Shown here one piece after another: positions 30,883-62,447 of a DNA stretch of 64,000 nucleotides (its first letter is position 1; each line of letters begins with the position of its first letter). Under the pieces are notes generated by a model. That model searched no databases and had not been told where the DNA came from. It saw only the letters and a list, made by a program, of their open reading frames with translations. The position numbers were made by a program, and so were the translations under genes. Source of the stretch: Vitis vinifera. Lineage: Eukaryota; Streptophyta; Magnoliopsida; Vitales; Vitaceae. Where the stretch lies: contig NC_081807.1 in assembly GCF_030704535.1 (NCBI RefSeq), forward strand, positions 4,195,001 to 4,259,000. The letters are read 5' to 3'.

Positions 30883-32334
30883 ATGTCATCCTTGTCTTCT
30901 TCTTCTTCCTCTTCTCGATCAGAGCTTCCGTTACTGAAAATTCCAGGCGATTATGGATTACCCTTCTTTGGTCCCATAAGGGATCGTTTCGACTACTTTT
31001 ACAATCAAGGGCAGGACGAGTTCTTCAAAACCCGGATGCAGAAATATCATTCCACAGTCTTCAGAGCCAACATGCCGCCAGGCCCCTTCATCTCTTCCGA
31101 CTCCAAGGTGGTTGTTCTTCTCGACGCCGTCAGCTTTCCCGTTCTTTTCGACTCTTCCAAAGTCGAGAAGAGAAACGTCCTCGACGGGACTTTCATGCCC
31201 TCCACCGACTTAACAGGCGGGTACCGTGTCCTTGCATTTCTCGACCCCTCCGAACCCAAACACGATCTTCTCAAACGCTTCTCCTTCTCTCTACTCGCAT
31301 CTCGCCATCGCGACTTCATTCCCGTCTTCCGTAGCGGCTTGCCGGACCTCTTCACCACCATAGAAGACGATGTTTCCAGCAAGGGGAAAGCTAACTTCAA
31401 CAACATCGCCGACGGCATGTATTTCAACTTCGTCTTTAGATTGATTTGCGGAAAAGATCCTTCCGACGCTAAAATCCGATCAGAAGGACCCAATATTTTC
31501 TCAAAATGGCTGTTCCTCCAACTTTCTCCTCTCATGACTCTTGGGTTGTCCATGTTACCAAACTTCATAGAAGATTTGCTTCTACACACATTTCCCTTAC
31601 CACCATTCTTGGTAAAGTCCGATTATAATAAGCTTTATAAGGCCTTTTACGAATCGGCCTCTTCAGTATTGGATGAAGGTGAGAGAATGGGGATTAATAG
31701 AGATGAAGCTTGCCACAACCTTGTATTCCTAGCTGGTTTCAGTACGTTCGGTGGCATGAAGGTTTTGTTTCCCCCTTTGATCAAGTGGGTTGGGTTAGCA
31801 GGAGAGAAGCTACACCGCGAACTCGCTGATGAAATAAGGACCGTTGTTAAGGCTGAGGGAGGAGTGACATTTGCAGCGTTGGATAAGATGGCTTTGACTA
31901 AATCAGTGGTTTATGAGGCTCTGAGGATTGGGCCTCCGGTTCCGTTCCAGTATGGGAAGGCCAGGGAGGATATGGTGATCCACAGCCATGATGCCGCGTT
32001 TGAGATCAAGAAAGGGGAGATGATCTTTGGATATCAACCCTTTGCCACTAAGGATCCTAAGGTTTTCGAGAACCCTGAGGATTTTGTGGCCCATCGGTTT
32101 ATGGGTGAGGGGGAGAAATTGCTTAAGTACGTGTACTGGTCTAATGGACGAGAGACGGATAATCCGACGGCGGAGAATAAACAGTGCTCAGGGAAGGATC
32201 TGGTGGTGCTGATCTCCAAGTTAATGCTGGTGGAGATTTTCCTTCGTTACGATACTTTCGAAGTTGAGTCTGGGACCATGGTGTTAGGATCCGCTGTGCT
32301 TTTCAAGTCGTTGACCAAGTCCAGTTACACTTGA
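30883..32334 (+). CDS. CYP74C-type fatty-acid hydroperoxide enzyme, copy 1 (altered I-helix motif)
   Basis: Intronless, 483 aa. CYP74 enzymes are P450s that use no O2 or reductase and rearrange fatty-acid hydroperoxides (hydroperoxide lyase, allene oxide or divinyl ether synthase). Seen: PPGPFISSDSKVVVLLD (65-81), FVFRLICG, I-helix block AGFSTFGGMKVLFPP (284-298), ExxR E345/R348, PPVPFQYGKAREDMV, and the CYP74 haem loop NPTAENKQCSGKDLV with ligand Cys435. No transit peptide is evident beyond a Ser-rich start. Subfamily C is chosen from resemblance to the cucurbit 9/13-HPL sequence. Odd: the Asn of the I-helix motif, kept in the other three copies, is Ser287 here, followed by Thr288; and Glu350 of RIEPPVPF is Gly. 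I start at 30883 by matching copy 2. Activity may be changed or lost. Confidence 0.93.
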   Translation: MSSLSSSSSSSRSELPLLKIPGDYGLPFFGPIRDRFDYFYNQGQDEFFKTRMQKYHSTVFRANMPPGPFISSDSKVVVLLDAVSFPVLFDSSKVEKRNVLDGTFMPSTDLTGGYRVLAFLDPSEPKHDLLKRFSFSLLASRHRDFIPVFRSGLPDLFTTIEDDVSSKGKANFNNIADGMYFNFVFRLICGKDPSDAKIRSEGPNIFSKWLFLQLSPLMTLGLSMLPNFIEDLLLHTFPLPPFLVKSDYNKLYKAFYESASSVLDEGERMGINRDEACHNLVFLAGFSTFGGMKVLFPPLIKWVGLAGEKLHRELADEIRTVVKAEGGVTFAALDKMALTKSVVYEALRIGPPVPFQYGKAREDMVIHSHDAAFEIKKGEMIFGYQPFATKDPKVFENPEDFVAHRFMGEGEKLLKYVYWSNGRETDNPTAENKQCSGKDLVVLISKLMLVEIFLRYDTFEVESGTMVLGSAVLFKSLTKSSYT

Positions 32335-32966
32335 TCATGGTCAACATAATATTCCTTCCAGTTCAAATACATTGATCTAAAGTGTAAGTATGGTCCGGTG
32401 TGCTTTGTATGTTTTACAAGATAACGTGTGTGTGTGTTTTTTTTTAATTATTTTTTGGATTCGAATCAATGTAACATTTCTTTGGGATGAAACATGAATT
32501 TACTATGTATCTTTTTTACTACTACATGAGTCTTTTTATCGTAGAATATTTAATGCCAAAAATGGAAGATAAAAAAGTCATGCTCATATAATTAAAATAA
32601 TAAGGTAACATACAAAAAAAAGAAAAAGAAAAAAAGAATGTGAACTCAAAATTAACGCAATAAAAAAAATAGATATTTAAAGTTTTATTTGGAAATTCTT
32701 TTTAAAAATAGTTTTCAAGAATTGTTTTTGAAAATTATACTCTAATATTTTATGCAATAAAAGTTTGTTTGAAAGCTTAAATTGTTTTTAATTTATTTTT
32801 TAAAAGACTTTTAAATATTTTTAAAAATAGAACTTATTTGTAATATTTTATTTTAATCATTCTCCACATTTGTATAATTATTTTTCAAAATAACTCTAAA
32901 ATACAAATAAAAACAACTAAAATATATTATTAGAAAATACCATATTTTATAATGTTTGATTATCGA

Positions 32967-33030
<64 letters not shown>

Positions 33031-33225: not shown

Positions 33226-33309
33226 AGAATAACAACTTTGTATATTTGAGCTGAAGAGATGTATTTCTCTTCATTATGAATGGTATATATATAATATACA
33301 AAGGATAAC

Positions 33310-34648: not shown

Positions 34649-36454
34649 TTGCTGTTCGACATCCCATCACAAGCTGAATAGAGGATAGGAAATTGAAAGC
34701 TTGGAACACAGAAACTGAAACTGAGAAAGAGACAAAGACTTAGTAAACAGGTCTACTGGTTGTTCTTGAGAGGGTATATAACGAACTTCAAGAGTAGGGT
34801 GGAGAATCTTTTCTCGAATGAAATAGACATCTACCTCAATATGTTTAGTGCGTGAATGATAAACAGGATTGTAGGAAAGAGCATGCACATCCAGGTTATC
34901 ATACCAAGCTATGGGATGATGCTGTAATGGAAGTTGAAGTTCATCCAGTAAAGATTTTATCCAAATTAATTCCATAGTAACACTAGCCAGTGTCCGATAC
35001 TCGGATTCAGTACTGGACCTTGCAATGACCTATTGTTTACAAGAACTCCAAGTTACTAAATTGCCACCAAGAAAATCACAATAATAGGTCGTAGATCTTC
35101 TGTCATCAACATTACACACCCAATCCGCATCCAAGAAGCCTTCAAGTGTAAATCGAGTAATAGGTGGAAAAGATAAACCAAGAGTTCGAGTACCACTAAC
35201 ATAGTGCAAGAGACATTTACAAGCACTCCAATGATGTTGTGTAGGAGCCTTAAGAAATTGGCTCAACTTATTAACCGAGAAAGATATGTCAGGCCGAGTT
35301 AAAGTTAAGTATTGGAGAGCACTGATGGTGCTGCAATACAAGGTGACATCAGGAAAATGAGCACTGTCTTCAAGAGCAAGTTTCTGACCAAGAGCCATTG
35401 GTGTAGAGGATGATTTAACATGAACCATGTTTGTCTTGACAAGTAAATCAGAAATATATTTGGCCTGATTGAGATAGAGACCGGAACTATCTCTAAATGC
35501 TTCAAATCCAAGAAAGTAATTAATAGAACTAAGAGTCTTCAAAGCAAACCGAGAAGTGAGAGCCTAAATCACAGAATGAATGAGTGTGGAACTGTCGCTA
35601 ATTATTAGGACATCATCAACATATACTAATACCAAAGCCAAATGACCATTCTCCCGAGAGTGAAATAAGAAATTATCAGAAATGGAAGGCCGAAATCCCC
35701 ATGAGACTAGAGCACTGCGAAGTTGAACAAACCAAGCTCGAGGAGCTTGTTTAAGCCCATAGAGTGACTTAATCAACTTGCAGACATGAGTAGGATGAGT
35801 AGAACTAACAAACGCTTCAGGTTGACACATATAGACATCTTCATGAAGAATGCCATTTAGAAAGGCATTATTGATATCGATTTGCTGTATGTCCCAATTG
35901 TAAGCGATAACAAGAGTAAAAATTATCCGAATACTAGAGGCTTTGACAACTGGACTGAATGTGTCTGAGAAATCTACACCAGCATGTTGTTGAAACCCCT
36001 TAGCAACCCATCTAGCTTTGAATTTATCCAAAGAACCATCAGCCTTCAACTTGGTTTTAAAGATCCATTTGTTTAGGACAATATGCATTCTTTCAGTTTT
36101 AGGAACCAGTCGCCAAGTACCATTGTGAACAAGGGCAGAATATTCAACCTCCATTATCGTTTTCCAGTGAGGTAATTGTAAAGCTTGTCGAACACTAGAG
36201 GGCTTTTGGAAGTGATCTAGTAAAGCAACAACAATTGTGTAAACCTTAGGTTTGTAGATGCCACTTTTAGACCTTGTCTGCATAGAATTAATATTGGTAG
36301 AAGTGTGGAGAAGAGGTTGAGACATAGTAGCAATAATAGGCTGAACAACATGTGTGCAAGGTGTGGAAACTATGTTGTCAACAATAAGAACTATAGTGCC
36401 AGTAGCAGGACAGGAGAGCAGTGAAGCAGAACTTGTTGTAGAATTAGAAAAACT

Positions 36455-37359
36455 CAATGTTTTCATAATCGGACCGGTGATCGAACCGGAAAAGTTACCG
36501 GTTCACGGTTCACTGGTCAGACCAACGGTCGAACCATTATCAAATCGGTGACGTCATAAATATAAAATTTATATATTATTAAAATTAAAAATAATTATAA
36601 ATTTTTTTTAAATATATATGAATAAATTAAACATCAATAATATTATTTTATATCTTTGATATTATCAAATTAAATCATATTAATATTTTAAATTTTATTA
36701 AATGAAATATGTATAATATTTAAATGTGAACATATAAAAAAATGAAAATTTAAACTAATTTCATAATTTTTAAAAATATTATATTATTTTTATTTAATAT
36801 TATAAAAAAAATTAAAAATCTAATATATATTGTTTTGTTTGGCATATTAGATAATAAAATACATGTAGCTGAGTGGTGTCCTAGGTGGACTATAGTACAG
36901 GAGTAGTCCAAGGTTCAAACTCTCTTGGTGGAGTTTTGTTATGTTTTTTTTCGTTGATATTTAGCAATCCCACATCGGAAAATGAGAGGCACAAAGAGTC
37001 AAATGACTCCTAGGTTTTGTGGGCTCAAAACTCAGCCCACAGTAATTGGAGTGGGTATGTGGACGGTGTCATAAGACAGACCCAACATGTGCTTTAGTAA
37101 AAACCATTTAAATTTTATGGAATCCTTCTTTCCATGCTTACAATGAGAGGGTAATATTTTCATTTTGTAATTTAAAAAAAAAAAATTAAAATCATTTGAA
37201 TCGATCGGTTCGTCCGGTTCACCAGTTGAACCGTCGGTTCGAGCGGTTCAACCCCGTCGATCTCAATCCGGTCCAAATGACCGGATCAGACCGGAACGGT
37301 GACCGGTCGACGGTTGGACCGGTCGGATCGGCCGGTCTGGTCTGATTTTTAAAACATTG
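36455..37359. mobile_element. hAT-like non-autonomous DNA transposon, element A
   Basis: 905 bp with terminal inverted repeats CAATGTTTT...AAAACATTG and an exact 8-bp target duplication GAAAAACT (36447-36454 and 37360-37367), the hAT pattern. The ends are rich in ACCGGT/CCGGTT motifs; the centre is AT-rich. It has no transposase. It lies in the copia coding region and is in inverse orientation to element B. It contains a USE-like TCCCACATCGG (36968-36978) and a tRNA-like A-box/B-box pair (about 36868-36918). Compared with B it lacks the segment that would hold the TATA box. Confidence 0.85.
36866..36922 (+). other. tRNA-like A-box/B-box sequence inside element A
   Basis: TAGCTGAGTGG fits the tRNA A-box consensus and GGTTCAAACTC resembles the B box about 35 bp later. 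The same pair is kept in element B on the opposite strand (38265-38328, TAGCCGAGTGG and GGTTCAAACC). It does not fold into a full tRNA that I can identify. Confidence 0.5.
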
Positions 37360-37798: not shown

Positions 37799-38726
37799 TA
37801 ATGTTTTAAAAATCGGACTGGATCGGCCGGTCGAACCGGTCCAACCATCGGCCGATCATCATTCCGATCTGATCCGGTCATTTGGACCGGATTGAGATCG
37901 AACCGGGGTAAAACCGTTCTAACCGATGGTTCAACCGGTGAACCGGACGAACCAGCCGGTTCCAAAAAAACCGATCAATTCAAAAGATTTTAATTTTTCT
38001 CTAAAAAAAAAATTAGAAAATGAAAACATTACCAAGGATTCCATGGAACTTAAAATGGATTTTACTAAAGGATGTTGGGCCTGTCTTATGACACAGCCCA
38101 CAACCCACATACCCATTCCACTTTATGTGGGCTGAGTTTTGAGCCCCCAAGCCTATCTTAAGCCTTTGCTGAGGATGGCTTTTATAGGAGTCATTTGACT
38201 CCTTGTTCCTCTTTCTTGCCGATGTGGGATTGCTAAATATCAAAGAAAAAAAACATAACAAAACTCCAAGAAGGTTTGAACCTTGGACCACCCCTATACT
38301 AAAGTCCACATAGAACACCACTCGGCTACATGGATTTTATTATTTAATATGCCAAACAAGACAACACATATTAGATTTTAAATTTTTTTATAATATTAAA
38401 TAAAAATAATATAATATTTTTAAAAATTATGAAATTATTTTAAATTTTCATTTTTTTATATATTCACATTTAAATATTACACATATTTCATTTAATAAAA
38501 TTTAAAATATTAATATGATTTAATTTGATAATATCAAAGATATAAAATAATATTATTGATGTTTAATTTATTCATATATATTTTAAAATTTTTATAATTA
38601 TTTTTAATTTTAATAAAATATAAATTATATATTTATGACATCAATAATATTATTTTATATCCGACCAGTGAACCGTGAACCGATAATTTTTCCGGTTCGA
38701 TCATTGGTCCGGTTCTGAAAACATTG
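37799..38726. mobile_element. hAT-like non-autonomous DNA transposon, element B
   Basis: 928 bp, same family as element A but inverted. Ends TAATGTTTT...GAAAACATTG; target duplication TTAAGAAG (37791-37798 and 38727-38734). The empty site survives in unit 1 at 28609-28616, so the insertion followed the segmental duplication. On the minus strand it has a USE-like TCCCACATCGG, then a TATAAAA box, and upstream an A-box/B-box pair. No ORF of note. Confidence 0.9.
38180..38229 (-). promoter_or_regulatory. snRNA-type promoter-like USE plus TATA inside element B
   Basis: Minus strand: TCCCACATCGG at 38219-38229 and TATAAAA at 38180-38186, with 32 bp between. In plant snRNA genes a USE-TATA spacing of about 33-34 bp goes with Pol II and about 23-25 bp with Pol III, and the three U6 genes here show 24-26 bp. 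No snRNA is recognisable downstream. Whether it drives transcription is unknown. Confidence 0.5.
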
Positions 38727-38734: not shown

Positions 38735-40463
38735 TAAAAAAAATTAATAGGTTCACTATAATTATGGTAGTTCACTTTTAGCATTTAGAAAAAGTCAAAT
38801 ATTTTAATTTTTTTTATTCAATAAAAAATTTAAGAAATAAATAATAAGTTAAAAAACCAAAAATCTATCTAAAATCCCAAAGCACATTGCTTTCAAAAAG
38901 AAAAGAAAAGAAAAGAAAATGTCCTCTTTACGCTTTATTTGGTCTTAAATCTTAATCAATTAATAAGAGGATGAAAAATTCATTACTTTCATGTTGAAAT
39001 CATCTATGATTGGTAGCAGCCACATCAATTTCCTTTTTTTCATAAAAAAATTATATTATCTTTATTATAGTTAAAAGATATGAAAAAATTGGTTGAAAAA
39101 ACTGCCATTAGAAGATCCAACATTTGAACCTTGAGAGGGATGTTTGAATGCCCCCTAAATATATATATATATATAAAGGGGAGATTGAGATCTTTCTTCT
39201 AAAGAGGGACGATTGAAATTTAGAATTTAAAATCGAAATATATAACTCAATATATTGAGACTTGCCGTTTGGACAATCTAATTTAAGAGGCAAAAGTTAG
39301 GTTATTACAAATATAAATATGATGGAGATCTGCAAGCTGCTTTGCCAACCTTCACACCAGTGGGGCCATGCATTTCAATACTTCATTTCCCATTGGCAAA
39401 GACTCTTCATGGCGGTGGATTGCTTAATTGACTAAATCAGAAAATGATAATATCTTATCGGTCTACTAATTCAATTGTATATATGACTAGGGATGATAAT
39501 ATTGCGGGTTTTTTCAAGCATGCCACCAATGTAGTTAATAATAAAATAAGTTTAGGATTAAAATAAACTAATTAATGATGAGTTTGTATTATTATTATTT
39601 TTTCAAATTCGAATAAATTTAGGTAATATAAAGGGTGATAATTCGTATTTGTGGGTTCTGTTCATATCATGTTAAAGACTAAGTATTCTACTATATAAGC
39701 CAATTCAAATTTGACATAAATAATAATAATGTGAAAAATATAAATTCAAATACTTCATAATTATTAAACAGTTAATATATTGTATGTAACCTATTTAACC
39801 CATTTAATAATTAAATCTTCATATTTGATAATATATTTTTATGGTTAATGTTTGAACTATACATGTTTATGACTCAATTGACATGTTTATTTAAAAAGAA
39901 AATTTAAAATAAATTAAATAATTTAAAAATATAATTAGGTTAATCAATCAGATTATTAAAGGAGTAGATTTGAGTCGTGTTATATAGGTTGGTAGAAAAA
40001 CTATCCATTTTTAAACGAATTATGTAGGGTTGAGTCCAATTTGATTCTAACTTATTTATATTTACTCAAATTTCAATCACGTTCATGCGGTCAACAAATA
40101 TGATAAAAAAATTTGATCTGATCACGTTCGAACAACAGTCATAGTGTAAGCGTATGATAGAAAAGGTGGTGAATAATTGCACCATCCTTCATAATTTATT
40201 AGTGTGTTGAAGCCATTCAACGCCATGGCTTTGCTTATCAATGGTGTGTGTCCTTTGAATACTTCAACTGCTCAATAAATTGCAGACATCTACAGCGGTG
40301 GCGAGCACGGTTGCGTGTCGTTCCAAGTCTGCATTCCTTTTTATTTGTAGAACAATTTTGATATCTTTCACCTACGAATAATACCTTCTGGATCTGTCAT
40401 TCTTCTATCACCATTCTTCAATCCATTGCTGTTGCAGTACCCCACCCCTTCCGGATTTTCGCA
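38735..40463. other. upstream region of CYP74C copy 2
   Basis: Homologous to 28620-30882 minus the MITE. Short AAAAG repeats near 38900-38930 and a short (AT)n at about 39158-39174. No other gene. Confidence 0.6.
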
Positions 40464-41915
40464 ATGTCATCCTCGTCTTCTTCTTCTTCCTCTTCTCGAC
40501 CAGAGCTTCCGTTACGGAAAATTCCAGGAGATTATGGATTACCCTTCTTTGGTCCCATAAGGAATCGTTTCGACTACTTTTACAATCAAGGGCAGGATGA
40601 GTTCTTCAAAACCCGGATGCAGAAATATCATTCCACAGTCTTCAGAGCCAACATGCCGCCAGGCCCCTTCATCTCTTCCGACTCCAAGGTGGTTGTTCTT
40701 CTCGACACCGTCAGCTTTCCCGTTCTTTTCGACTCCTCCAAAGTCGAGAAGAGAAACGTCTTCGTCGGGACTTTCATGCCCTCCACCGACTTAACAGGCG
40801 GGTACCGCGTCCTTCCATATCTCGACCCCTCCGAACCCAAACACGATCTTCTCAAACGCTTCTCCTTCTCTCTACTCGCATCTCGCCATCGCGACTTCAT
40901 TCCCGTCTTCCGTAGCGGCTTGCCGGACCTCTTCTCCACCATAGAAGACGATGTTTCCAGAAAGGGGAAAGCTAACTTCAACGACATTGCCGATGACATG
41001 TATTTCAACTTCGTCTTTAGATTGATTTGCGGAAAAGATCCTTCCGACGCTAAAATCCGATCAGAAGGACCCAATATTTTCTTAAAATGGCTGTTCCTCC
41101 AACTTTCTCCTCTCTTGACTCTTGGGTTGTCCATTTTACCAAACTTCATAGATGATTTGCTTCTACACACATTTCCCTTCCCACCATTCTTGGTAAAGTC
41201 CGATTATAATAAGCTTTATAAGGCCTTTTATGAATCGGCCTCTTCAGTATTGGATGAAGGTGAAAGAATGGGGATAAAGAGAGATGAAGCTTGCCACAAC
41301 CTTGTATTCCTAGCTGGTTTCAATTCGTTCGGTGGCATGAAGGTTTTTTTTCCCGCTTTGATCAAGTGGGTTGGGTTAGCAGGAGAGAAGCTACACCGCG
41401 AACTCGCTGATGAAATAAGGACCGTTATCAAGGCTGAGGGAGGAGTGACATTTGCAGCGTTGGATAAGATGGCTTTGACTAAATCAATGGTTTATGAGGC
41501 TCTGAGGATTGAGCCTCCGGTTCCGTTCCAGTATGGGAAGGCCAGGGAGGATATGGTGATCCACAGCCATGATGCCGCGTTTGAGATCAAGAAAGGGGAG
41601 ATGATCTTTGGATATCAACCCTTTGCCACCAAGGATCCTAAGGTTTTCGAGAACCCTGAGGAGTTTGTGGCCCATAGGTTCATGGGTGAGGGGGAGAAAT
41701 TGCTTAAGTACGTGTACTGGTCTAATGGACGAGAGACGGATAATCCGACGGCGGAGAATAAACAGTGCTCAGGGAAGGATCTGGTGGTGCTGATCTCCAG
41801 GTTAATGCTGGTGGAGATTTTCCTTCGTTACGATACTTTCGAAGTTGAGTCTGGGACCATGCTGTTAGGATCATCTCTGCTTTTCAAGTCGTTGACCAAG
41901 ACCAGTTACACTTGA
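40464..41915 (+). CDS. CYP74C-type fatty-acid hydroperoxide enzyme, copy 2
   Basis: Intronless, 483 aa, differing from copy 1 at 32 positions by my hand comparison. All CYP74 landmarks are present: PPGPFISSD (65-73), I-helix block AGFNSFGGMKVFFPA (284-298) with Asn287, ExxR E345/R348, RIEPPVPFQYG, haem ligand Cys435 in ENKQCSGKDLV. The residue after the I-helix Asn is Ser288, as in allene oxide synthases, whereas copies 3 and 4 have Ala there as in hydroperoxide lyases. Residues 100-101 are Phe-Val where the other three copies have Leu-Asp. In-frame ATG at 40464 is the natural start. The frame looks fully functional; product specificity (lyase, allene oxide synthase or other) cannot be settled from sequence. 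Confidence 0.94.
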   Translation: MSSSSSSSSSSRPELPLRKIPGDYGLPFFGPIRNRFDYFYNQGQDEFFKTRMQKYHSTVFRANMPPGPFISSDSKVVVLLDTVSFPVLFDSSKVEKRNVFVGTFMPSTDLTGGYRVLPYLDPSEPKHDLLKRFSFSLLASRHRDFIPVFRSGLPDLFSTIEDDVSRKGKANFNDIADDMYFNFVFRLICGKDPSDAKIRSEGPNIFLKWLFLQLSPLLTLGLSILPNFIDDLLLHTFPFPPFLVKSDYNKLYKAFYESASSVLDEGERMGIKRDEACHNLVFLAGFNSFGGMKVFFPALIKWVGLAGEKLHRELADEIRTVIKAEGGVTFAALDKMALTKSMVYEALRIEPPVPFQYGKAREDMVIHSHDAAFEIKKGEMIFGYQPFATKDPKVFENPEEFVAHRFMGEGEKLLKYVYWSNGRETDNPTAENKQCSGKDLVVLISRLMLVEIFLRYDTFEVESGTMLLGSSLLFKSLTKTSYT

Positions 41916-45630: not shown

Positions 45631-45650
45631 GTCTCTTCGGAGACATCCGA

Positions 45651-45682
<32 letters not shown>

Positions 45683-45732
45683 GGCCCCTGCGCAAGGATG
45701 ACACGCACAAATCGAGAAATGGTCCAAATTTT
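45631..45732 (+). ncRNA. U6: U6 spliceosomal snRNA, gene 2
   Basis: 102 nt, core identical to genes 1 and 3: 5' stem-loop GTCTCTTCGGAGAC, ACAGAGA box, internal stem-loop and GTCCAAATTTT end. Followed by T8 as terminator (45729-45736). Its flanks on both sides are near-copies of those of gene 3. Looks functional. Confidence 0.97.
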
Positions 45733-45736
45733 TTTT
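45729..45736 (+). terminator. Pol III T-run terminator of U6 gene 2
   Basis: Eight T residues at the U6 3' end. Confidence 0.85.
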
Positions 45737-46445: not shown

Positions 46446-49204
46446 GAAAACAAATAATTTTGGGAAAAGTAAACTTTGATTCACTAATATGAAAATATAT
46501 AAAAAAAAATACTTCAAAAATTTTAAATTGATATTATATTCATTTATTTAAAAACAATTTGAAAAACATAAATTTTTTTAATGAGTTCTTTAATTATTCC
46601 TTAAAATACTCATTTTACTTGTCATGTTGGCAACATCAATTGGCAATTAGATTCCTTCACTTAATTATTTCTTTTTCTTTTATATATTTATTATTATTAT
46701 TATTATTATTTGAGATTTTTTTTTTCTCTAGAAACAAACACCTAAGAAAAGTTTAAACACTTTTCTTTTTCCCTCATAAACAAACTTCATAATAAAAGTG
46801 AGGTAATTTAAAGAGTGTTGACATTAAAAGTAGGTAAAACCCTAGCGAAGAGTAGATGAATTTGAGTTTATTGGGAATAAGGTTTATAATTTTCTTTATA
46901 ATATCTTTGGGAATTTTTTTGATTATGACAAGTTAAGGTTAATTCCAAGGACTTTGATAGTTTAGAGAATTTTTTTTTTCTTGGTTTCATCGTAGAGATA
47001 CAAATAAAAAAGTAACATATTGTTGTTTTTATTTATTTTTATATAAAATTCTTAATGTGATTATTGGTAGTCAAGAAAATCTGAAAAGAAAATTAAAAGA
47101 AATATAATAATAATAATAATAATATTTAAAAGAAATAAAAATATTTATGTGAAGGAATCTAGTTATTAATTAAAAAAGTGTATGTATTTAAAATTATATT
47201 TAAATATATAAGATAATATTGATTTAAAAAATTTGAGGTTTTTTTTTTTATATATATTTTCCTGAGTCCAAACTCATTTTTTTTTAATAATTTTTAAAAT
47301 TTTCAAATAGTACCCTAAATATCATTTAATAAAATAAATAATTCTCAATATTATTTATAATGAAGATGAAAATATAAAATATATCAAATTTAATATTAAA
47401 AATATTGCTAAAATATTTAGCTTTTTTTAAAAAAAATTTAAAAATCAAGAGAATTTTTAAAAATAACAAGAAATATTAATAATTTTATTTATTTCTTTAT
47501 TTATTTATTTATTGCTACAAAAAGTTTAGAAATAACAAGAAATCAGAAGAAATTTTCCTAATTTTTCACAAAAAAAGTTATATACCTTAAAAACAGAGAA
47601 AATGAAAAAAAAAATTAATTATATATAACTAGGTTAATGATAATACAACACTAATTATTTCTATTTCTATCTTTTCTATTATTAAATACAAAAGTCAAAT
47701 GCTTCGTCAAACAAGATTTTTATTTTTTTAAGAATTTTTCCCTTTTTTTTTTTCAATAGGGGATAGAGAGATCTTTCTTCTAAAAGAGGGCGTAAATGAA
47801 TCTAAATCCAACTTTTATGTTAGCCATGACTCAAATGTTGAATTTAAAATTGAAATAATTCGATATATTGAGACGACACGTTTGGACAATCTAATTTGTT
47901 AAGCAAAAGATATGTTATTACAATTTTTTATAATTGGTTTGCCAAACTTGACACCATTAGGGTAGTTATATAGCATTTTATCATGCATTTCAATACTTTC
48001 AACGACTCATCACGGTGGATTGCGTAATTGTTTCAAATTAGAAAATGATAATACCTTTTTGTCTCAAGAGATGATTAGGAGTGATAATGGGATGAGTTTT
48101 TTCAAACATTGTGAATGATAAAATAAGTTTAGAATAAAAACAATTTGATTAGTGATGAACTGATATTTTTCTTTTATTTTTTTAAAATCCAAATAAATTC
48201 AGATATTACTAAGGGTGACAATTCGTATTGGTGGATCGTATTTTTATTGTGTCAAAGCTATTTTACTATATACATCGACCCAAACTCCATATAAATAATA
48301 ATCATTTCAAAAATATAAACTTAAATACCACATAATTATTAAATGAGTCAAATATAGGTTAAATAGTTTAAAAATACAATTAAACTAATAAATGAGACCA
48401 ATGAGTTTATTAAATGAGTCAATTCGACTCAAATTTGTATTATACAAATTGATAAAAAAAAAAGACCTATTTATTAAATAGAATATATTTAACTCATTTA
48501 TATTCAATCAAAACTTGCAAAAAATATGTTCACTCGAATCATATGGTCATATCAAATATATATATATATATTTATATATAATTGGATGAAAGTTAATTTA
48601 TATAATGGGGATGGGTGATCCATTCGAACCAAAGATTTGGAAATATCCAATCAATGCAAATAAGAAATATAATAAAAAAAAAATTGGAGGATATGTATCT
48701 GATCCTCTTCAGGCTTCAAACACCAGTCATGGGGTAAAAATGCATGATAGAAAACGTGGTGTCTTTTCAGTCGGTGCATTGTCGTTTTCCGCGGAATATG
48801 TGGTGAATTAAAAGGTTTTTAAGCGCCCACATGGAGTGGGTTGATGCAAGTGAGCTGGGTGGTGCCTCACAGGAAGTTTCAGGCTCGTGCTGCAGCATAT
48901 TCTGAGTTCAGAACACGATTGTGATCAGAAAAAGTGGCAATATTATTTAAAAAGGCGTGGAAATTAAAGTAGTATGGTCTTTCTTTACTGACACTATTGC
49001 ATCTCATGATATTCAAAGCTAAGGTGTGATTCTTGTGGACGCATATTAAATTTGAGTAAGTAGTGCACTAGTTGTTTATATCATTAAGAGTGGACCTCTC
49101 CTGCTCCATTTAACAACAATCTTCTTCGTCTTCTTAGCAATTTTGTACTTACTTTGTGACCTTGGCTTTCTCTGCTCCACCCTCCACCCTCCATAGCCAC
49201 CACC
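46446..49204. other. AT-rich spacer and upstream region of CYP74C copy 3
   Basis: Contains a (TTA)n run at about 46688-46711, an (ATA)n run near 47106-47122, and from about 47.76 kb sequence homologous to the upstream regions of copies 1 and 2; from about 48.8 kb it instead matches the upstream region of copy 4. The promoter junction is thus a mosaic. No gene. A TATA-like CATTTAA lies about 100 bp before the ATG of copy 3, where copy 4 has TATTTAA. Confidence 0.55.
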
Positions 49205-50701
49205 ATGTCCTCTTCTTCTTCCTCTCTTCCCCTCAATTTCGACAACTCATCTTCATCATCAAAACTTCCACTGCGATCCATCCCGGGTGATTGTGGCTCA
49301 CCCTTCTTTGGGCCCATTAAGGATCGTTTCGACTACTTCTACAATGAAGGCCGTGACCAGTTCTTCAGAACTCGCATGCAGAAATACCAATCCACGGTCT
49401 TCAGAGCCAACATGCCACCCGGCCCTTCCATGGCTTCCAACCCTAATGTCGTTGTCCTCCTCGACGCCATCAGCTTTCCCATCCTTTTCGACACCTCCAG
49501 AATTGAAAAGAGAAATGTCCTCGACGGCACATACATGCCCTCCACCGCCTTCACCGGTGGCTACCGTGTCTGTGCATATCTCGACCCTTCCGAGCCCAAC
49601 CACGCCCTTCTCAAACGCTTGTTCATGTCTTCGCTCGCAGCTCGACACCATAACTTCATTTCTGTGTTTCGTAGCTGCTTAACAGAGCTCTTCATCACCC
49701 TCGAAGACGATGCTTCCAGAAAAGGGAAAGCCGACTTCAATGGCATATCTGATAACATGTCTTTCAACTTCGTCTTCAAACTCTTCTGCGATAAGCATCC
49801 CTCCGAGACCAAACTCGGATCAAATGGACCCAATCTTGTTACAAAATGGTTGTTCCTCCAACTCGCTCCTCTCATCACACTTGGTTTGTCCATGTTACCA
49901 AACGTTGTAGAAGATTTACTTCTACACACCTTTCCCTTACCCTCATTATTCGTAAAATCCGATTATAAGAACCTTTACCATGCTTTTTACGCATCCGCGT
50001 CCTCGATATTAGATGAAGCTGAGAGCATGGGGATCAAGAGAGATGAAGCTTGCCATAACCTTGTGTTTCTTGCTGGTTTCAACGCATACGGTGGCATGAA
50101 GACCCTGTTTCCTGCTTTGATCAAGTGGGTTGGCTTAGCCGGAGAGAAATTACACGGCCAGTTGGCTGATGAGATCAGGAGCATCGTTAAGGCTGAGGGA
50201 GGAGTGACATTTGCGGCGTTGGACAAAATGGCTTTGACTAAATCGGTTGTGTATGAGGCTCTGAGGATTGAGCCTCCGGTTCCATTCCAGTACGGGAAGG
50301 CCAAGGAGGATATGGTGATCCACAGCCATGACGCTGCATTTGAGATCAAGAAAGGGGAGATGATATTCGGATATCAGCCATTTGCCACCAAGGATCCCAA
50401 GGTTTTCGACAATCCTGAGGAGTTTGTGGCCCATAGGTTCATGGGCGATGGAGAGAAAATGCTCGAGTACGTGTATTGGTCTAATGGACGCGAGTCAGAT
50501 GATCCAACGGTGGAGAACAAACAGTGTCCGGGAAAGGATCTGGTGGTCCTGCTGTCCAGGGTAATGATGGTGGAGTTTTTCCTCCGTTACGACACGTTCA
50601 ACATTGAGTGCGGAACCTTGCTGTTGGGATCATCAGTGACGTTCAAGTCGTTGACCAAGCAGCCTACATTTGATCACAAGTCAATTACGCACGTATCGTA
50701 G
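49205..50701 (+). CDS. CYP74C-type fatty-acid hydroperoxide enzyme (HPL-like I-helix), copy 3
   Basis: Intronless, 498 aa, with a longer Ser-rich N-terminus and a longer C-terminal tail than copies 1/2. Landmarks: I-helix block AGFNAYGGMKTLFPA (290-304) with Asn293-Ala294, ExxR E351/R354, IEPPVPFQYGKAKEDMV, haem ligand Cys441 in ENKQCPGKDLV. The GFNAYGG motif equals that of the cucurbit CYP74C hydroperoxide lyases, so a 9/13-HPL making C9 or C6 volatile aldehydes is the best guess. It differs from copy 4 at 17 of 498 positions by hand count; notable is Ser75 in PPGPSMASN, where the other three copies have Phe. Start at 49205 follows a well-kept leader shared with copy 4. Looks intact. Confidence 0.94.
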   Translation: MSSSSSSLPLNFDNSSSSSKLPLRSIPGDCGSPFFGPIKDRFDYFYNEGRDQFFRTRMQKYQSTVFRANMPPGPSMASNPNVVVLLDAISFPILFDTSRIEKRNVLDGTYMPSTAFTGGYRVCAYLDPSEPNHALLKRLFMSSLAARHHNFISVFRSCLTELFITLEDDASRKGKADFNGISDNMSFNFVFKLFCDKHPSETKLGSNGPNLVTKWLFLQLAPLITLGLSMLPNVVEDLLLHTFPLPSLFVKSDYKNLYHAFYASASSILDEAESMGIKRDEACHNLVFLAGFNAYGGMKTLFPALIKWVGLAGEKLHGQLADEIRSIVKAEGGVTFAALDKMALTKSVVYEALRIEPPVPFQYGKAKEDMVIHSHDAAFEIKKGEMIFGYQPFATKDPKVFDNPEEFVAHRFMGDGEKMLEYVYWSNGRESDDPTVENKQCPGKDLVVLLSRVMMVEFFLRYDTFNIECGTLLLGSSVTFKSLTKQPTFDHKSITHVS

Positions 50702-51578: not shown

Positions 51579-51598
51579 GTCTCTTCGGAGACATCCGA

Positions 51599-51630
<32 letters not shown>

Positions 51631-51680
51631 GGCCCCTGCGCAAGGATGACACGCACAAATCGAGAAATGGTCCAAATTTT
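51579..51680 (+). ncRNA. U6: U6 spliceosomal snRNA, gene 3
   Basis: 102 nt, identical in the core to genes 1 and 2, followed by T10. It lies 0.9 kb after CYP74C copy 3. A long minus-strand ORF (51220-51783) across it is a shadow. Confidence 0.97.
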
Positions 51681-51686
51681 TTTTTT
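51677..51686 (+). terminator. Pol III T-run terminator of U6 gene 3
   Basis: Ten T residues at the U6 3' end. Confidence 0.85.
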
Positions 51687-53120: not shown

Positions 53121-53361
53121 TGTTGAAATTGATAAATGATATTTTTTCATTCATCTTTTCATTTGTTCGTGTACAGAGTATATATAGAGGGTAATCACCA
53201 TTCTAAGAATGTGAAATAATAATACAAGAAAAGAATGATATAAGAAAATAACAACTAATATCCTAATATCTCAACTTTCCTAATATCTCAATATTCCTAA
53301 TATCTCAATATTCCCAATATCTCAACTTTCCTAATATCTAAACATTCCTAATATCTCAACA
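53121..53361 (-). repeat. left LTR of the copia element (3' LTR in element sense)
   Basis: 241 bp, TG...CA, containing repeated 'CCTAATATCTCAA' motifs near its inner end. Confidence 0.92.
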
Positions 53362-56300
53362 CTCTCCCTCAAGTTGGTGCATAGATGTCACACATGCCCA
53401 ACTTGTCTAAAATTTTTGAGAACACTTGACTTGAGACAGCTTTGATAAGGATATCGGCCAATTGATCTTCTGATCGAATTTTAGGCAATTCCACAATCTT
53501 ATCATCCAACTTTTCCTTAATGAAGAATCTATCCACCTTGACATGCTTTGTACGATCATGTTGTACTGGATTATGAGTAATGTCACATGTGGCTTTATTG
53601 ACACAAAACAATCGGATTGGTTGCCTAGATAGGTAACCTAAATCCTGTAAGAGGAGTCTTAGCCATAATGCCTCACAAAGTCCTAGAGTCATACCTCTAA
53701 ATTCCACTTCTGCACTTGAACGAGAGACGACATTCTGCTTCTTACTTTTCCATGTCACAAGATTACCACCTACAAAGGTAAAGTAACCAAATGTAGATTG
53801 CCTATCATCCACTGCACCGACCCAATCAGCATCAGTATATACTTCTATACTCTGATGATCAACATTTTTAACGAACAAAATTCCCTTCCCAGGAGCATTC
53901 TTCAAATACCTCAAAATACGCATGGCTGCATTCATATGTTGCTCTCTAGGATTACGCATGTATTGACTCACTACACTCAATGCATACGCAAGATCTGGTC
54001 TTGTATGAGCTAAGTACATTAATCTCCCCACAAGTCTCTGGTATCTTCCCTTATCGGTTGATACTTGATTAGACTCAACACACAATTTCAGACCTTTTTC
54101 TATTGGTGTATTAACAGGTTGACATCCTGACATTCCAGTCTCCTGTAAAAGATCTAAGGCATACTTTCTTTGAGACAGAAAAATTCCTTCACTTGATCAA
54201 GAAACTTCAATCCCAAGAAAGTATTTCAGAGGACCTAGATATTTCATTTCGAATTCTCTAGATAGATAATTTTGCAGAGTTTTTCTTTCTTCAGGATCAT
54301 TTCCTGTAACTACCATGTCATCCACATATACGATGAGTGTCGTAATCTTACCATGTTGCTTTTTCAGGAACAAAGTGTGATTTGAATTACTTTGACGATA
54401 GCCAAAAGCTCTCATTGACTTTGTGAACCTTCCAAACCATGCTCTCGGGGATTGCTTCAACCCATACAATGACTTCTTCAATTTGCACACCTTTTGACAT
54501 TGCTTTTCTGGCACCATGCATCCTGGTGGAAGATCCATGTATACTTCTTCAGATAACTCGCCATGCAGAAAGACATTTTTCACATCGAATTGTTGTAATG
54601 GCCAATCTAGGTTTGCAGCTAAAGACAATAATACTCGAACTGTGTTGATCTTAGCTACAGATGCAAATGTCTCTGTGTAGTCAATTCCATAAGTTTGAGT
54701 GTACCCTTTTGCTACCAGTCTTGCTTTAAATCGTTCAATACTACCATCTGCCCTGTACTTCACAGTATAGATCTAACGACACCCAACTGGCTTCTTTCCT
54801 GGTGGACATTTTACGAGTTCCCATGTTTCATTCTTTTGCAATGATTTCATCTCTTCATTCATGACTGCTTTCCACCTTGGATCAGCTAAGGCTTCCTGCA
54901 CATTGTTAGGAATAGCTACAGTAGATAATTGATTTACAAATGACTTATTTGATTCAAACAAACGATGGTTAGACACATAGTTGCTCATGGAATATTTGAC
55001 TTTGGTAGACAATTCAGGTTCATATGTGGGTTTAGGAATACCTCTATTATGACGGTGTGGTAACCGTTTCATGAATGGATCATGTTCCAAATTAAGAACA
55101 CCCTCAATAGACAACGATTGGTTTGGTATTTCAATGAAGACATCTTCGGACCCAAATTGTTGACCACTCATATCCAACTCACCCACTTCCTGGTTCACTA
55201 ATTCAGATTGTCCAGATTCATCTTCCTCAGAGATATGATAATCATAATCAAGAGTCTGAATTTCCTTACGGTACTCCCCCTAAAGTTCAGACTCAGATGA
55301 AAAATACATCGAATCTTCATGAAACACCACATCCATTGTAATATACATTTGTCGAGTTGGAGGATGGTAACATCGATATCCCTTTTTGTGCAATGCATAT
55401 CCAACAAACACACATTGCAATGCATGGGAAGTTAACTTGGCGCGTTGATGCTTGTGTAGATGCACAAATGCCACGCAACCAAAAACACGAGGAGGTAGAT
55501 TTGGGACAGTTGGGGCAACTACGGCATTAGTAAGAGCTTGGAGAGGTGTTTGAAAGTTAATTGAGTTAGAAGGTACCCGACTGATCAAGTATGCGACAGA
55601 TGTGATTGCTTCTCCCCAATAAGATATCGGTGTTTTTGCTGCTATCAAGGAAGCACGAACAACCTCTAACAAGTGCCGATTTTTTCGTTCAGCGACTCCA
55701 TTTTGCTGGGGTGTATTGGAACAAGTAGTTTGATGAATGATGCCATGTCCTTCCAAATACTTTTGAATATCAGAACTTTGATATTCTCCACCATTATCAC
55801 TACGTAGAACCCGAACCTTTGCATTGTACTGAGTTTCAATCACTTTATGAAATTTTTGAAACAACAAGTTCATTTCATCTTTGGTTTTCATCAAGCACAA
55901 CCATGTCATTCTGGTACAATCATCAATAAAAGTAACAATCTAACGTGAGCCACTCAAAGTTGGGACTTTGGATGGACCCCAAACATCAGAATGTATAACC
56001 ATAAAAGGAAACGGACTTTTATTTAAAATTAACGGAAACGAAGCACGATGACTTTTAGCCAATTCACAAATATCACAACGGAAACCAGAAATATCACTTT
56101 TTGCAAACAAACTAGTAAACAATTTTTTTAAATAACCAAAGGAAACATGTCCCAGACATCGATGCCACAACCAAATTTCAGATTTTTTCTTCTCCCCCTC
56201 AGATCCATCTGCCATCAAGGCTTGTTGCAACTTATTTGAATCATTTGACTGCAAGTCCAAGTAATAGAGTTTTCCCCGCTTAATACCACAACCAATCGTC

Positions 56301-57018
56301 TATCTTGTTTGGATGTCCTTAATCACACAAAATTCAGGCCAAAAAATAACAATACAAGATAAGGTTGCAGTGATTTGAGAAACTGACAAAAGATTGTAAT
56401 CTAAAGATGAAACAACTAAAACAGAATCCAAATTCAAAGTATCAGTAAGAGTTAAGGATCCTTCCCCAATGACTGGGGTTGTATTACCATTGGCTGTGGA
56501 AACAATTTTTTGTGAGGAAGGTCTAAGGGGTGAAACCTGTCTAGAATCAAAAGTCATGTGATCTGTAGCACCAGAATCAATTATCCATGCACTATTAATA
56601 ACAGGTGTAAAAGTATTTAAAAACTTACCATCATGATCTGTAGCGGCTACCAATGCAGAGGCTTTCTCAGCAACATTAGCCTCTGTTTTTATTTCGGCAA
56701 CAGTTGCAGTCGAGGTTTTCTTGGAATCCTTCTTCCATTGGTCACGATTATTATCATTAATAACAAAGTGTTGATAACCTAAACATGATCTAAAGGTCCA
56801 TGGTTCAAACCCTCGGTTCCTCATTTTTTTCCTGGTCGTACCAAGAGTCGTTGCTTTGAAATTGTGGGATATCTAGACTGGTGGGATCGGTCTTATTGCA
56901 TCGAGTGCATTTGAAGGTTGACTTATCAATATTAGGGCTTGTCTTAGGATGGTTGATCGCTGTTGGATTACCATAGCGACAAAATATCCAGGATTTCAGT
57001 TCCATGACTCTAATACCA

Positions 57019-57278
57019 TGTTGAAATTGATAAATGATATTTTTTCATTCATCTTTTCATTCGTTCATGTACAGAGTATATATAGAGGGTAATCACCATT
57101 CTAAGAATGAGAAAGAATGATACAAGGAAAGAATGATATAAGGAAATAACAACTAATATCCTAATATCTCAATATTTCTAATATCTCAACTTTGCTAATA
57201 TCTAAACATTCCTAATATCTCAACACTAAATGATATAAGGAAAGAATGATATAAGGAAACATTCCTAATATCTCAACA
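57019..57278 (-). repeat. right LTR of the copia element (5' LTR in element sense)
   Basis: 260 bp, TG...CA, same sequence as the left LTR with few differences plus a short internal duplication near its outer end. Confidence 0.9.
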
Positions 57279-57283
57279 CCCAC

Positions 57284-59740: not shown

Positions 59741-60950
59741 AGCCCATATGTGGTGAGTTAAAAGGTTTGTAAGGGCCCATATGGAGTGGGTCGATGCAAA
59801 TGGGCTGGTGCCTCACAGGAAGTTTTAGGCACGCTGCAACATATTCTGAGTTCAGAACGTGATTGAGATCGCAAAAAGTTGCAATATTATCGAAAATAGA
59901 TAAATAAAAAAAGGGACAGTTGGATCCAGTTGGACCAAAAATTAAGATTTGGATATAAAATATGAAAAGATTAATATAGTTTTCAAAACTATTTTGAATA
60001 TTTTCTACCATAATGTTTTATAAACTTTTTTATCTGAATTTTTTTAATAATTATTCTGAAAATTTATTATTTTTAGAAAATTAATTTTTTTAAAAAAATA
60101 TTCTAAAAATATATCATTTAAAAAAAAAAATTTGACGTATTTTTAGTTATTTTTTACATACATAATTTTAAATATATGTATTTTCCAAGATATTTGATTT
60201 TTAAATAATAATAATAACAATTTATTTTTATTTTTTTGGAAAATAGTGTATTTTTTTTCAAATCACTAAATTAAATTGAATTTTATTGAGGTTTGTAAAA
60301 GTAATAAAATTTAAATTAATGTTTTTCTACTCTTTCTTTTTTTTCATAGTCAATAAATATCATTTTTGAAAAGATAAAAAATTCATATCTTTCTTCTCAA
60401 TTTTCACACTTTTTCTAGGTTTTTGGCTTAAATAGTGGATTTATATGGATCAAAACTTCATTTTTGGGTCAAACGGTCCAAAACACAATTGTCCCACAAA
60501 AAAATAAAGTGATAATCATTGGTTTTATTTTTTAAGTAAACAAGCTTAGAAACGCGTGGAAAATGAGGTACTGTGGTCTTTCTTTACTTACACTATTGCA
60601 TATTATTGTATTAAATATCTATACATGTTTGTGTTGAATCCTAGTACTATATCATAGAAAACATCTATATTTATGAAGAGAATTTTGAAAATTATGATAT
60701 ATATTTTTTAATTTATTTTTTCTAAGATGGTGCATTTGTCGTGGGCATATGATATTCAAAGCTGAGGGGTGTGATTCTTGTGAACGCATATTAAATTTGA
60801 GTAAAATGGTGCACTAGTTGTTTATATCACTAAGAGCGGACCTCTCCTGCTCTATTTAACAACAATCTTCATCGTCTTCTTAGCAATTTTGTACTTACTT
60901 TGTGACCTTGGCTTTCTCTGCTCCACCCTCCACCCTCCATAGCCACCACC
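59741..60950. other. upstream region of CYP74C copy 4
   Basis: Homologous to 48800-49204 before copy 3 (for example GTGCCTCACAGGAAGTTT and CATATTCTGAGTTCAGAAC in both), but interrupted by a MITE. A TATA-like CTCTATTTAAC lies about 100 bp before the start codon. Confidence 0.65.
59913..60496. mobile_element. Mutator-like MITE, second copy of the family
   Basis: About 584 bp, a diverged relative of 28768-29354 with the same ends (GGGACAGTTGGA... and, reverse-complemented, GGGACAATTGTGTTTTGGAC). Flanks ATAAAAAAA / ACAAAAAAA fit a 9-bp target duplication with one mismatch. Confidence 0.82.
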
Positions 60951-62447
60951 ATGTCCTCTTCTTCTTCCTCTCTTCCCCTCAATTTCGTCAACTCATCTTC
61001 ATCATCAAAACTTCCACTGCGATCCATCCCGGGTGATTGTGGCTCACCCTTCTTTGGGCCCATTAAGGATCGTTTCGACTACTTCTACAATGAAGGCCGT
61101 GACCAGTTCTTCAGAACTCGCATGCAGAAATATCAATCCACGGTCTTCAGAGCCAACATGCCACCCGGCCCTTTCATGGCTTTCAACCCTAATGTCGTTG
61201 TCCTCCTCGACGCCATCAGCTTTCCCATCCTTTTCGACACCTCCAGAATTGAAAAGAGAAATGTCCTCGACGGCACATACATGCCCTCCACCGCCTTCAC
61301 TGGTGGCTACCGTGTCTGTGCATATCTTGACCCTTCCGAGCCCAACCACGCCCTTCTCAAACGCTTTTTCACGTCCTCGCTCGCAGCTCGACACCATAAC
61401 TTCATTCCTGTGTTTCGTAGCTGCTTAACAGAGCTCTTCACCACCCTCGAAGACGATGTTTCCAGAAAAGGGAAAGCCGATTTCAATGGCATATCTGATA
61501 ACATGTCTTTCAACTTCGTCTTCAAACTCTTCTGCGATAAGCATCCCTCCGAGACCAAACTCGGATCAAATGGACCCAATCTTGTTACAAAATGGTTGTT
61601 CCTCCAACTCGCACCTCTCATCACGCTTGGATTGTCCATGTTACCAAACGTTGTAGAAGATTTACTTCTACACACCTTTCCCTTACCCTCATTATTCGTA
61701 AAATCCGATTATAAGAAGCTTTACCATGCTTTTTACGCATCGGCGTCCTCGTTATTGGATGAAGCCGAGAGCATGGGGATCAAGAGAGATGAAGCTTGCC
61801 ATAACCTTGTGTTTCTTGCTGGTTTCAACGCATACGGTGGCATGAAGACCCTGTTTCCTGCTTTGATCAAGTGGGTTGGCTTAGCCGGAGGGAAATTACA
61901 CCGCCAGTTGGCTGATGAGATCAGGAGCATCGTTAAGGCTGAGGGAGGAGTGACATTTGCGGCGTTGGACAAAATGGCTTTGACTAAATCGGTTGTGTAC
62001 GAGGCTCTGAGGATTGAACCTCCGGTTCCATTCCAGTACGGGAAGGCCAAGGAGGATATGGTGATCCACAGCCATGACGCTGCATTTGAGATCAAGAAAG
62101 GGGAGATGATATTCGGATATCAGCCATTTGCCACCAAGGATCCCAAGGTTTTCGACAATCCTGAGGAGTTTGTGGCCCACAGGTTCATGGGCGATGGAGA
62201 GAAATTGCTCGAGTACGTGTATTGGTCTAATGGACGCGAGTCAGATGATCCAACGGTGGAGAACAAACAGTGTCCGGGAAAGGATCTGGTGGTCCTGCTG
62301 TCCAGGGTAATGCTGGTGGAGTTTTTCCTCCATTACGACACGTTCGACATTGAGTGTGGAACCTTGCTGTTGGGATCATCAGTGACGTTCAAGTCGTTGA
62401 CCAAGCAACCTACATTTGATCACAAGTCAATTAAGCACGTATCGTAG
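60951..62447 (+). CDS. CYP74C-type fatty-acid hydroperoxide enzyme (HPL-like I-helix), copy 4
   Basis: Intronless, 498 aa, the closest sister of copy 3. Same landmarks: AGFNAYGGMKTLFPA with Asn293-Ala294, ExxR E351/R354, haem ligand Cys441 in ENKQCPGKDLV. It keeps the family residues where copy 3 departs (Phe75, Pro153, Arg318). Own oddities: Gly313 in place of Glu in LAGGKLHRQL, and His461 in FLHYDTF where the other copies have Arg. Probable hydroperoxide lyase of the 9/13 type by motif. N-terminus has no clear chloroplast transit peptide beyond Ser-richness; localisation open. Looks intact. Confidence 0.94.
   Translation: MSSSSSSLPLNFVNSSSSSKLPLRSIPGDCGSPFFGPIKDRFDYFYNEGRDQFFRTRMQKYQSTVFRANMPPGPFMAFNPNVVVLLDAISFPILFDTSRIEKRNVLDGTYMPSTAFTGGYRVCAYLDPSEPNHALLKRFFTSSLAARHHNFIPVFRSCLTELFTTLEDDVSRKGKADFNGISDNMSFNFVFKLFCDKHPSETKLGSNGPNLVTKWLFLQLAPLITLGLSMLPNVVEDLLLHTFPLPSLFVKSDYKKLYHAFYASASSLLDEAESMGIKRDEACHNLVFLAGFNAYGGMKTLFPALIKWVGLAGGKLHRQLADEIRSIVKAEGGVTFAALDKMALTKSVVYEALRIEPPVPFQYGKAKEDMVIHSHDAAFEIKKGEMIFGYQPFATKDPKVFDNPEEFVAHRFMGDGEKLLEYVYWSNGRESDDPTVENKQCPGKDLVVLLSRVMLVEFFLHYDTFDIECGTLLLGSSVTFKSLTKQPTFDHKSIKHVS

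Follow-up and report, generated by a model that had tools for sequence, protein, structure and literature searches.

A Probable CYP74C Tandem Array on Grapevine Chromosome 3 Whose Copies Differ at Published Catalytic Determinants

Layout of the Array

The window analysed here, a 64,000-nucleotide stretch of Vitis vinifera chromosome 3 (C3:4195001-4259000), contains four intact, intronless CYP74 genes, all on the plus strand and with no internal stops in their open reading frames. Together with a fifth intact member located just outside the window (C3:4262335-4263798, window-equivalent 67335-68798), they probably constitute a tandem array of five genes for CYP74C-type fatty acid hydroperoxide enzymes, referred to below as copies 1 to 5. 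The copies differ at two sites that have been used to distinguish allene oxide synthases (AOSs) from hydroperoxide lyases (HPLs): a Phe/Leu toggle in substrate recognition site 1 (SRS-1), and the I-helix motif that normally carries a catalytic Asn. A preliminary description of the window had reported an array of four intact same-strand copies with the I-helix motifs GFSTFGG, GFNSFGG and, twice, GFNAYGG. The open reading frames and the motif positions confirmed these four genes and their motifs, to which the fifth member must be added. The genes of the window are:

30883..32334, plus strand: copy 1 gene, 483 amino acids; Leu toggle, GFSTFGG, without the I-helix Asn
40464..41915, plus strand: copy 2 gene, 483 amino acids; Phe toggle, GFNSFGG (two synthase states)
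49205..50701, plus strand: copy 3 gene, 498 amino acids; Leu toggle, GFNAYGG followed by MKT
60951..62447, plus strand: copy 4 gene, 498 amino acids; Leu toggle, GFNAYGG followed by MKT

A tblastn search of the window with the four proteins returned these four places only (E<=1e-3), and each protein matched the Pfam p450 domain (E values of 6.9e-16 to 1.7e-17). A genome search with copy 1 covered 88 of 155 candidates, and 21 matches were listed. Among the matches listed, the close ones were five, all on C3 (copies 1 to 5). The same matches included one full-length CYP74A-like gene on C18, encoding 520 amino acids with an N-terminus longer than that of the 483-498-residue window copies, and one CYP74B-like gene with two exons on C12; the other 13 were weak (26-32% identity across 97-149 query residues). 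Protein identity is 93% for copies 1 and 2 and 97% for copies 3 and 4, with 76-77% between the two pairs and 75-97% among the five copies overall.

Family Membership and Phylogeny

A PDB search, performed with copy 1 alone, matched 10 distinct sequences, of which the top three were CYP74A proteins with E values of 4.1e-181 or better, followed by the next P450 at 1.2e-5. These three matches are presumably the allene oxide synthases of Arabidopsis and guayule. The Cys heme ligand was found in an NKQC-x-GKD context in all four window copies. An alignment and a maximum-likelihood tree were constructed for nine proteins, comprising copies 1 to 5, the C18 gene product, Arabidopsis AOS (AtAOS), guayule AOS, and the C12 gene product as the outgroup. 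The five copies resolved as ((1,2),((3,4),5)), with support of 100 at each node. Placement of the window proteins in a CYP74 tree had been proposed as a check in the preliminary description; the four proteins and copy 5 formed one clade (support 100), apart from the CYP74A proteins and from the CYP74B-like gene on which the tree was rooted. The nodes among the three CYP74A sequences were weakly supported (35 and 55).

No CYP74C reference sequence was found in the PDB search with copy 1 or in scans of genome-contig and viral-contig collections with copy 3, which returned no relative. The assignment to CYP74C is suggested by a published locus on the same chromosome. VvHPL2 (VIT_03s0063g01830) was placed on chromosome 3, and VvHPL1 on chromosome 12 (PMC6804543, PMC5701163), in agreement with the genes detected on C3 and C12; VvHPL2 was cited as a 9/13-HPL (PMC8747702) and listed elsewhere as a '9-hydroperoxidase' (PMC6804543). 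One of the five copies is probably VvHPL2, because, beside the C18 and C12 genes, the listed close relatives lie only in this array. The 9/13 specificity of VvHPL2 would point to a CYP74C enzyme. A single lyase in the literature does not account for several copies with differing motifs.

The I-helix Asn was described as conserved in all CYP74s, in a text that prints the residue as 'Asp (N)' (PMC9320521). It is present in copies 2, 3, 4, and 5 and absent from copy 1, which is a CYP74 by descent but departs from the family at this residue. The CYP74 enzymes were also reported to carry GxxxI/A/V in place of the GxxxT of other P450s (PMC1540422). At this site, which aligns to position 294 of copy 2, the Val of copies 1 and 2 and the Ala of copy 5 fit, and the CYP74A and CYP74B-like sequences have Ile. 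Copies 3 and 4 read GGMKT and have Thr here, the monooxygenase residue, which does not fit the CYP74 pattern.

Catalytic Determinants in the Five Copies

The preliminary description had invoked a tomato CYP74C allene oxide synthase reported to be shifted towards lyase activity by a Ser-to-Ala mutation; the tomato substitutions are reported to be F295I and S297A, and AtAOS position 322 corresponds to the tomato site. For LeAOS3, a shift towards lyase activity through I-helix and ERR-triad substitutions is summarized in a review (PMC10813956). According to the same source, the toggle is Phe in all AOSs and Leu in all known HPLs and divinyl ether synthases, and toggle and I-helix mutations, chiefly in combination, yielded AOS activity in three CYP74C enzymes of cucumber and Medicago (PMC10813956). 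For the HPLs and AOSs of angiosperms, conservation of the toggle rule has been reported (PMC8578206). AtAOS was converted by F137L/S155A, and positions 137, 155, and 321 were described as decisive (PMC6627107). The I-helix Asn has been ascribed a role in O-O homolysis (PMC8124189), and the Asn321Gln variant of AtAOS retained a low level of allene oxide formation (PMC13049297). The corresponding positions in the array are:

31180..31182, plus strand: copy 1 toggle codon 100, CTC, Leu, lyase state
31735..31755, plus strand: copy 1 I-helix GFSTFGG; codon 287 (31741-31743) is AGT, Ser, with Asn in the other 8/8 sequences
31930..31932, plus strand: copy 1 codon 350, GGG, Gly, two residues past ExxR; Glu/Asp in 7/8 others, Asn in the CYP74B-like protein
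40761..40763, plus strand: copy 2 toggle codon 100, TTC, Phe, corresponding to AtAOS Phe137
40815..40817, plus strand: copy 2 codon 118 (AtAOS Ser155 site), Pro; Ala in copies 1, 3, 4, 5 and the CYP74B-like protein, Ser in the three CYP74A proteins
41316..41336, plus strand: copy 2 I-helix motif GFNSFGG
50075..50095, plus strand: copy 3 I-helix motif GFNAYGG
61821..61841, plus strand: copy 4 I-helix motif GFNAYGG

The SRS-1 toggle (AtAOS Phe137) is a second determinant, which the preliminary description overlooked. It is Phe in all three CYP74A sequences and, within the array, in copy 2 only, and Leu in copies 1, 3, 4, and 5 and in the CYP74B-like sequence. The rule on which the preliminary description relied concerns the residue that follows the I-helix Asn. 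At this position, 288, the alignment agreed with the rule, with Ala in copies 3, 4, and 5 and the CYP74B-like sequence, Ser/Thr in the CYP74A sequences, and Ser in copy 2. The rule is inapplicable to copy 1, in which Thr288 follows a Ser (codon AGT, versus AAT in copy 2) instead of the Asn found in 8/9 aligned sequences. At the AtAOS Ser155 site, copy 1 additionally shows the lyase residue, Ala118. Leu at the toggle and Asn-Ala in the I-helix thus occur together in copies 3, 4, and 5; copy 1 has the Leu only, and copy 2 has neither.

These residues suggest that copies 3, 4, and 5, with both lyase states, are lyase-like, and that copy 2, with both allene oxide synthase states, is the sole synthase-like copy of the array, though not fully so. 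Copy 1 would belong to neither class, because of Leu100, Ala118, the Ser that replaces the catalytic Asn, and Gly350, and its activity is predicted to be impaired or altered. A lyase pair and a synthase-like pair had been proposed in the preliminary description. The lyase-like character of copies 3 and 4 and the synthase-like character of copy 2 are retained; since copy 1 matches neither class, there would be a single synthase-like copy and not a pair. On balance, we favor an array of mixed chemistry, with one synthase-like copy, three lyase-like copies, and one that fits neither class. An AlphaFold2 model of copy 2, made from the four window proteins, was discarded (predicted local distance difference test score, pLDDT, 33; predicted template modelling score, pTM, 0.27).

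Clustering of the Differences between Copies 1 and 2

Six determinant positions (AtAOS 137, 155, 320, 321, 322, and 389) were chosen from published and otherwise known determinants once the I-helix motif was known, and a hypergeometric test was applied. Copies 1 and 2 differ at only 32/483 residues, yet they differ at 4/6 determinant positions, with a P value (0.0002) that is generous given this late choice of the positions. At positions 137 and 155, which lie outside the earlier motif, both residues differ (P=0.004). The control pairs, copies 3 and 4 (17 differences) and copies 4 and 5 (74 differences), differ at 0/6 determinant positions. The chance of obtaining L100F among 16 random replacement changes is 0.008.

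Selection on Copies 1 and 2

The ratio of nonsynonymous to synonymous substitution rates (dN/dS) was 0.69 for copies 1 and 2, compared to 0.31 for copies 3 and 4 and 0.17-0.21 between copies 1/2, copies 3/4, and copy 5. When changes were assigned by outgroup, copy 1 had 14 replacement to 6 silent changes and copy 2 had 16 to 5, with 5 of 46 ambiguous; both counts are indistinguishable from the neutral 2.78:1. Drift of both copies is therefore possible, and constitutes the main rival to mixed chemistry: constraint would have been relaxed on two redundant genes drifting to loss, their changes would be accidental and both enzymes weak or dead, and only the lineage of copies 3, 4, and 5 would do lyase work. 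The higher dN/dS and the near-neutral counts speak for this history, and each copy also alters residues common to copies 3 and 4 and the two solved CYP74A proteins (R18L, Y119F, N287S, E350G, E400D, and R446K in copy 1; D34N, L239F, L295F, V342M, and V472L in copy 2).

Several observations nevertheless make relaxed constraint the less likely of the two. Neither copy carries a stop or frameshift, although about 4.9 disabling changes would be expected if both had been free to decay (P=0.008). When a single copy is considered, P rises to about 0.11-0.12, and copy 1 by itself may thus be decaying. The changes between copies 1 and 2 concentrate on catalytic determinants, and the toggle change goes to the synthase-associated residue. 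Furthermore, the replacement-to-silent counts of the two pairs (32:14 for copies 1/2 versus 17:16 for copies 3/4) do not differ significantly (Fisher P=0.16). A purifying signal in copy 4 (4 replacement to 8 silent changes, P=0.004) was dropped, because the use of copy 5, a nearer outgroup, changed the count to 6:6.

Predicted Chemistry

Under the mixed chemistry favored here, copies 3, 4, and 5 would most likely turn 9- and 13-hydroperoxides into hemiacetals, which break down to aldehydes, with some epoxyalcohol. Copy 2 would most likely make mainly allene oxide, possibly with epoxyalcohol or lyase products mixed in, because the Phe toggle and the Asn-Ser pair match the synthases and the laboratory conversions; in characterized angiosperm enzymes, Phe at the toggle is associated with a route in which the epoxyallylic radical is oxidized to allene oxide. 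In copy 1, the lyase toggle is kept and the Asn to which a role in O-O cleavage is ascribed is gone; its classical activity is most likely weak or absent.

Apart from the late assembly of the determinant set and the near-neutral counts of copies 1 and 2, a number of points weigh against this assignment. Copy 2 has Val at position 101, where all three CYP74A sequences have Thr and the CYP74B-like sequence also has Val, and Pro at position 118, where all three CYP74A sequences have Ser. The toggle has exceptions, in that moss and Selaginella HPLs carry Phe (PMC8578206), as do two plant epoxyalcohol synthases (PMC10813956). Fungal synthases cleave hydroperoxides without the Asn (PMC13049297), so copy 1 could still work. 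Determinant differences are not enriched between lineages (copies 1/4, 2/6, P=0.41; copies 2/4, 3/6, P=0.14; copies 1/5, 2/6, P=0.45; copies 2/5, 3/6, P=0.17). The published VvHPL2 data are not attributable to one particular copy, and the activities of all copies are read from their sequences.

Six CYP74C enzymes formerly called 9/13-lyases were reported to have double lyase/epoxyalcohol synthase activity (PMC10813956). By extension, all five copies might be 9/13-lyase/epoxyalcohol synthases that differ quantitatively, with the motifs shifting the side products. The high identity of the copies would agree with such uniformity, but copy 2 has both published synthase states and copy 1 lacks the Asn, which make it improbable. 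At the other extreme, the locus could record a recent natural switch of chemistry, in which copy 2 became an AOS through the same type of toggle and I-helix change as made in the laboratory, and copy 1 became a working Asn-less CYP74 that uses Ser-Thr for O-O cleavage and forms a different product; we regard this version as quite unlikely.

Duplication History and Gene Conversion

Between copies 1 and 2, the coding sequence differs by 3.2% and the 100 bases preceding the ATG at 3/100 positions, and divergence immediately past the stop is 12.7%; in the flanks it ranges from 6.3%, in the closest upstream block outside these 100 bases, to 18.8%. Silent sites (14/338) are less diverged than the hand-computed flanks (120/1154) of the same BLAST block (Fisher P=0.0002). 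Copies 3 and 4 show the same shape, with 1.9% and 2.2% versus 7-23% in the flanks. The low-divergence spans (30783-32334 versus 40364-41915, and 49101-50701 versus 60847-62447) comprise about 100 bases before the ATG plus the coding sequence, and divergence rises sharply after the stop. This pattern could stem from gene conversion of the transcribed unit or from a lower mutation rate in gene bodies. No recent exchange between copies 1/2 and copies 3/4 was seen in three between-pair comparisons (copy 1 with copies 3 and 4, and copy 2 with copy 4, aside from the first 20 columns and the last scrap): the proportion of synonymous sites changed was 0.31-0.60 in every one of the 12 main blocks of 40 codons. 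The changes that set copies 1 and 2 apart would have hit catalytic determinants after, or despite, a likely homogenization of their coding sequences.

The preliminary description attributed the two motif classes to tandem duplication, which holds for the gene copies; for the motifs, this origin is one possibility. The Phe toggle of copy 2 is most simply new, because copies 1, 3, 4, and 5 all have Leu-Asp at positions 100-101, and the Ser/Thr at position 288, common to CYP74A and copies 1 and 2, may be old. In a different history, which is compatible with mixed chemistry, the synthase state of copy 2 would be an old CYP74C one that was retained, and copy 1 would have reverted to Leu, either by itself or by a short conversion from copies 3 to 5. 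The shared Ser/Thr at 288, the CYP74A state of the toggle in copy 2, and the low coding divergence beside high flank divergence, which suggests conversion within the array, speak for such retention. It is, however, unlikely: the match of copy 1 to copies 3 to 5 at two adjoining codons would call for parallel changes or a very short conversion tract, the toggle of the CYP74B-like outgroup is Leu, and the tree contains no CYP74C synthase.

Relation to Known CYP74 Enzymes

Both CYP74C synthases and grape VvHPL2 have been described before, and the array would add a new natural variant to them. Copy 2 would resemble the CYP74C allene oxide synthases LeAOS3 (CYP74C3), StAOS3 (CYP74C10), and petunia CYP74C9; the last is intronless like the array copies and was called a synthase by similarity, with its activity unconfirmed in the 2006 paper. 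LeAOS3 would share the Phe toggle with copy 2, by the review's statement on all AOSs (PMC10813956). A 93%-identical neighbor with the lyase toggle, as copy 2 has, is not mentioned in the available descriptions of these three enzymes, and the comparison is one of descriptions only. From the CYP74A synthases, copy 2 differs at positions 101 and 118. AtAOS itself (CYP74A1; PDB 2rch, 2rcm) is about 55% identical to the copies, which form a clade separate from CYP74A. In cucumber, the lyase/epoxyalcohol synthases CYP74C1_CS and CYP74C31 likewise place more than one CYP74C gene, with mixed activities, in a single genome; there, however, toggle and I-helix changes were made in the laboratory, whereas copy 2 has both states in a natural gene. 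The plant-like CYP74C44 was reported to be a lyase (PMC9320521). No prior report of these motifs was found in paper text, figures excluded; eight papers carry gene identifiers of this locus, and an earlier description in some of them or elsewhere is possible; the available portions of PMC9916873, PMC2180173, PMC5133920, and PMC10572586 contain nothing on them.

The chemistry of CYP74 enzymes sets the fate of oxidized fatty acids, directing them to volatile aldehydes that function in aroma and defense or to signaling precursors. The residues that decide this chemistry have so far been tested largely with point mutants, and in the array near-identical native neighbors differ at them. The native copies offer a test of the published rules in natural backgrounds, and of CYP74 function without the Asn. 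Should copy 2 form allene oxides at an extraplastidic site, a non-jasmonate ketol branch would exist in grapevine alongside its 9/13-lyase.

Neighborhood of the Array

Four identical, 103-nucleotide U6 small nuclear RNA genes are found at the array, each with the plant upstream sequence element (USE) and a TATA-like box. They are:

27614-27716, minus strand: U6 gene
45631..45733, plus strand: U6 gene, 3.7 kb after copy 2
51579..51681, plus strand: U6 gene, 0.9 kb after copy 3
window-equivalent 64581-64683, plus strand: U6 gene, 2.1 kb after copy 4

Since three of these genes trail copies 2, 3, and 4 on the same strand, the duplicated unit seems to carry CYP74C and U6 together. No U6 gene was found between copies 1 and 2, nor in the 4.7 kb beyond copy 5.

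Other features lie among and upstream of the CYP74 genes:

34670-36502, minus strand, between copies 1 and 2: retroelement piece, with RVT_2 at 35567-36502
36582-36817 and 38376-38611, upstream of copy 2: arms of an inverted repeat, 236 nucleotides, 93% complementary, 1.6 kb apart
53121-57224, minus strand, between copies 3 and 4: retroelement remnant with terminal direct repeats (206 nucleotides, 92% alike) and a 17-nucleotide tandem repeat
21417-24465, minus strand: WCOR413-like cold acclimation protein gene in exons, two pieces of which were matched
14900-20466, plus strand, upstream of the array: multi-exon gene, two pieces of which match Pfam AMP-binding
12846-12921, minus strand: tRNA-Ile (AAT) gene
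6532-7722, plus strand: RING-H2 finger protein, a single open reading frame of 396 amino acids

A USE-like sequence, TCCCACATCG, lies on both strands between the inverted repeat arms, where no U6 gene was matched. The remnant between copies 3 and 4, in which one of two pieces tested matched integrase and SH3-like Pfam domains, is presumably of the Copia type. The AMP-binding gene appears, by eye, to encode a long-chain acyl-CoA synthetase, its remaining exons being placed in the same way. The RING-H2 protein is, judging by its layout, presumably of the ATL type.

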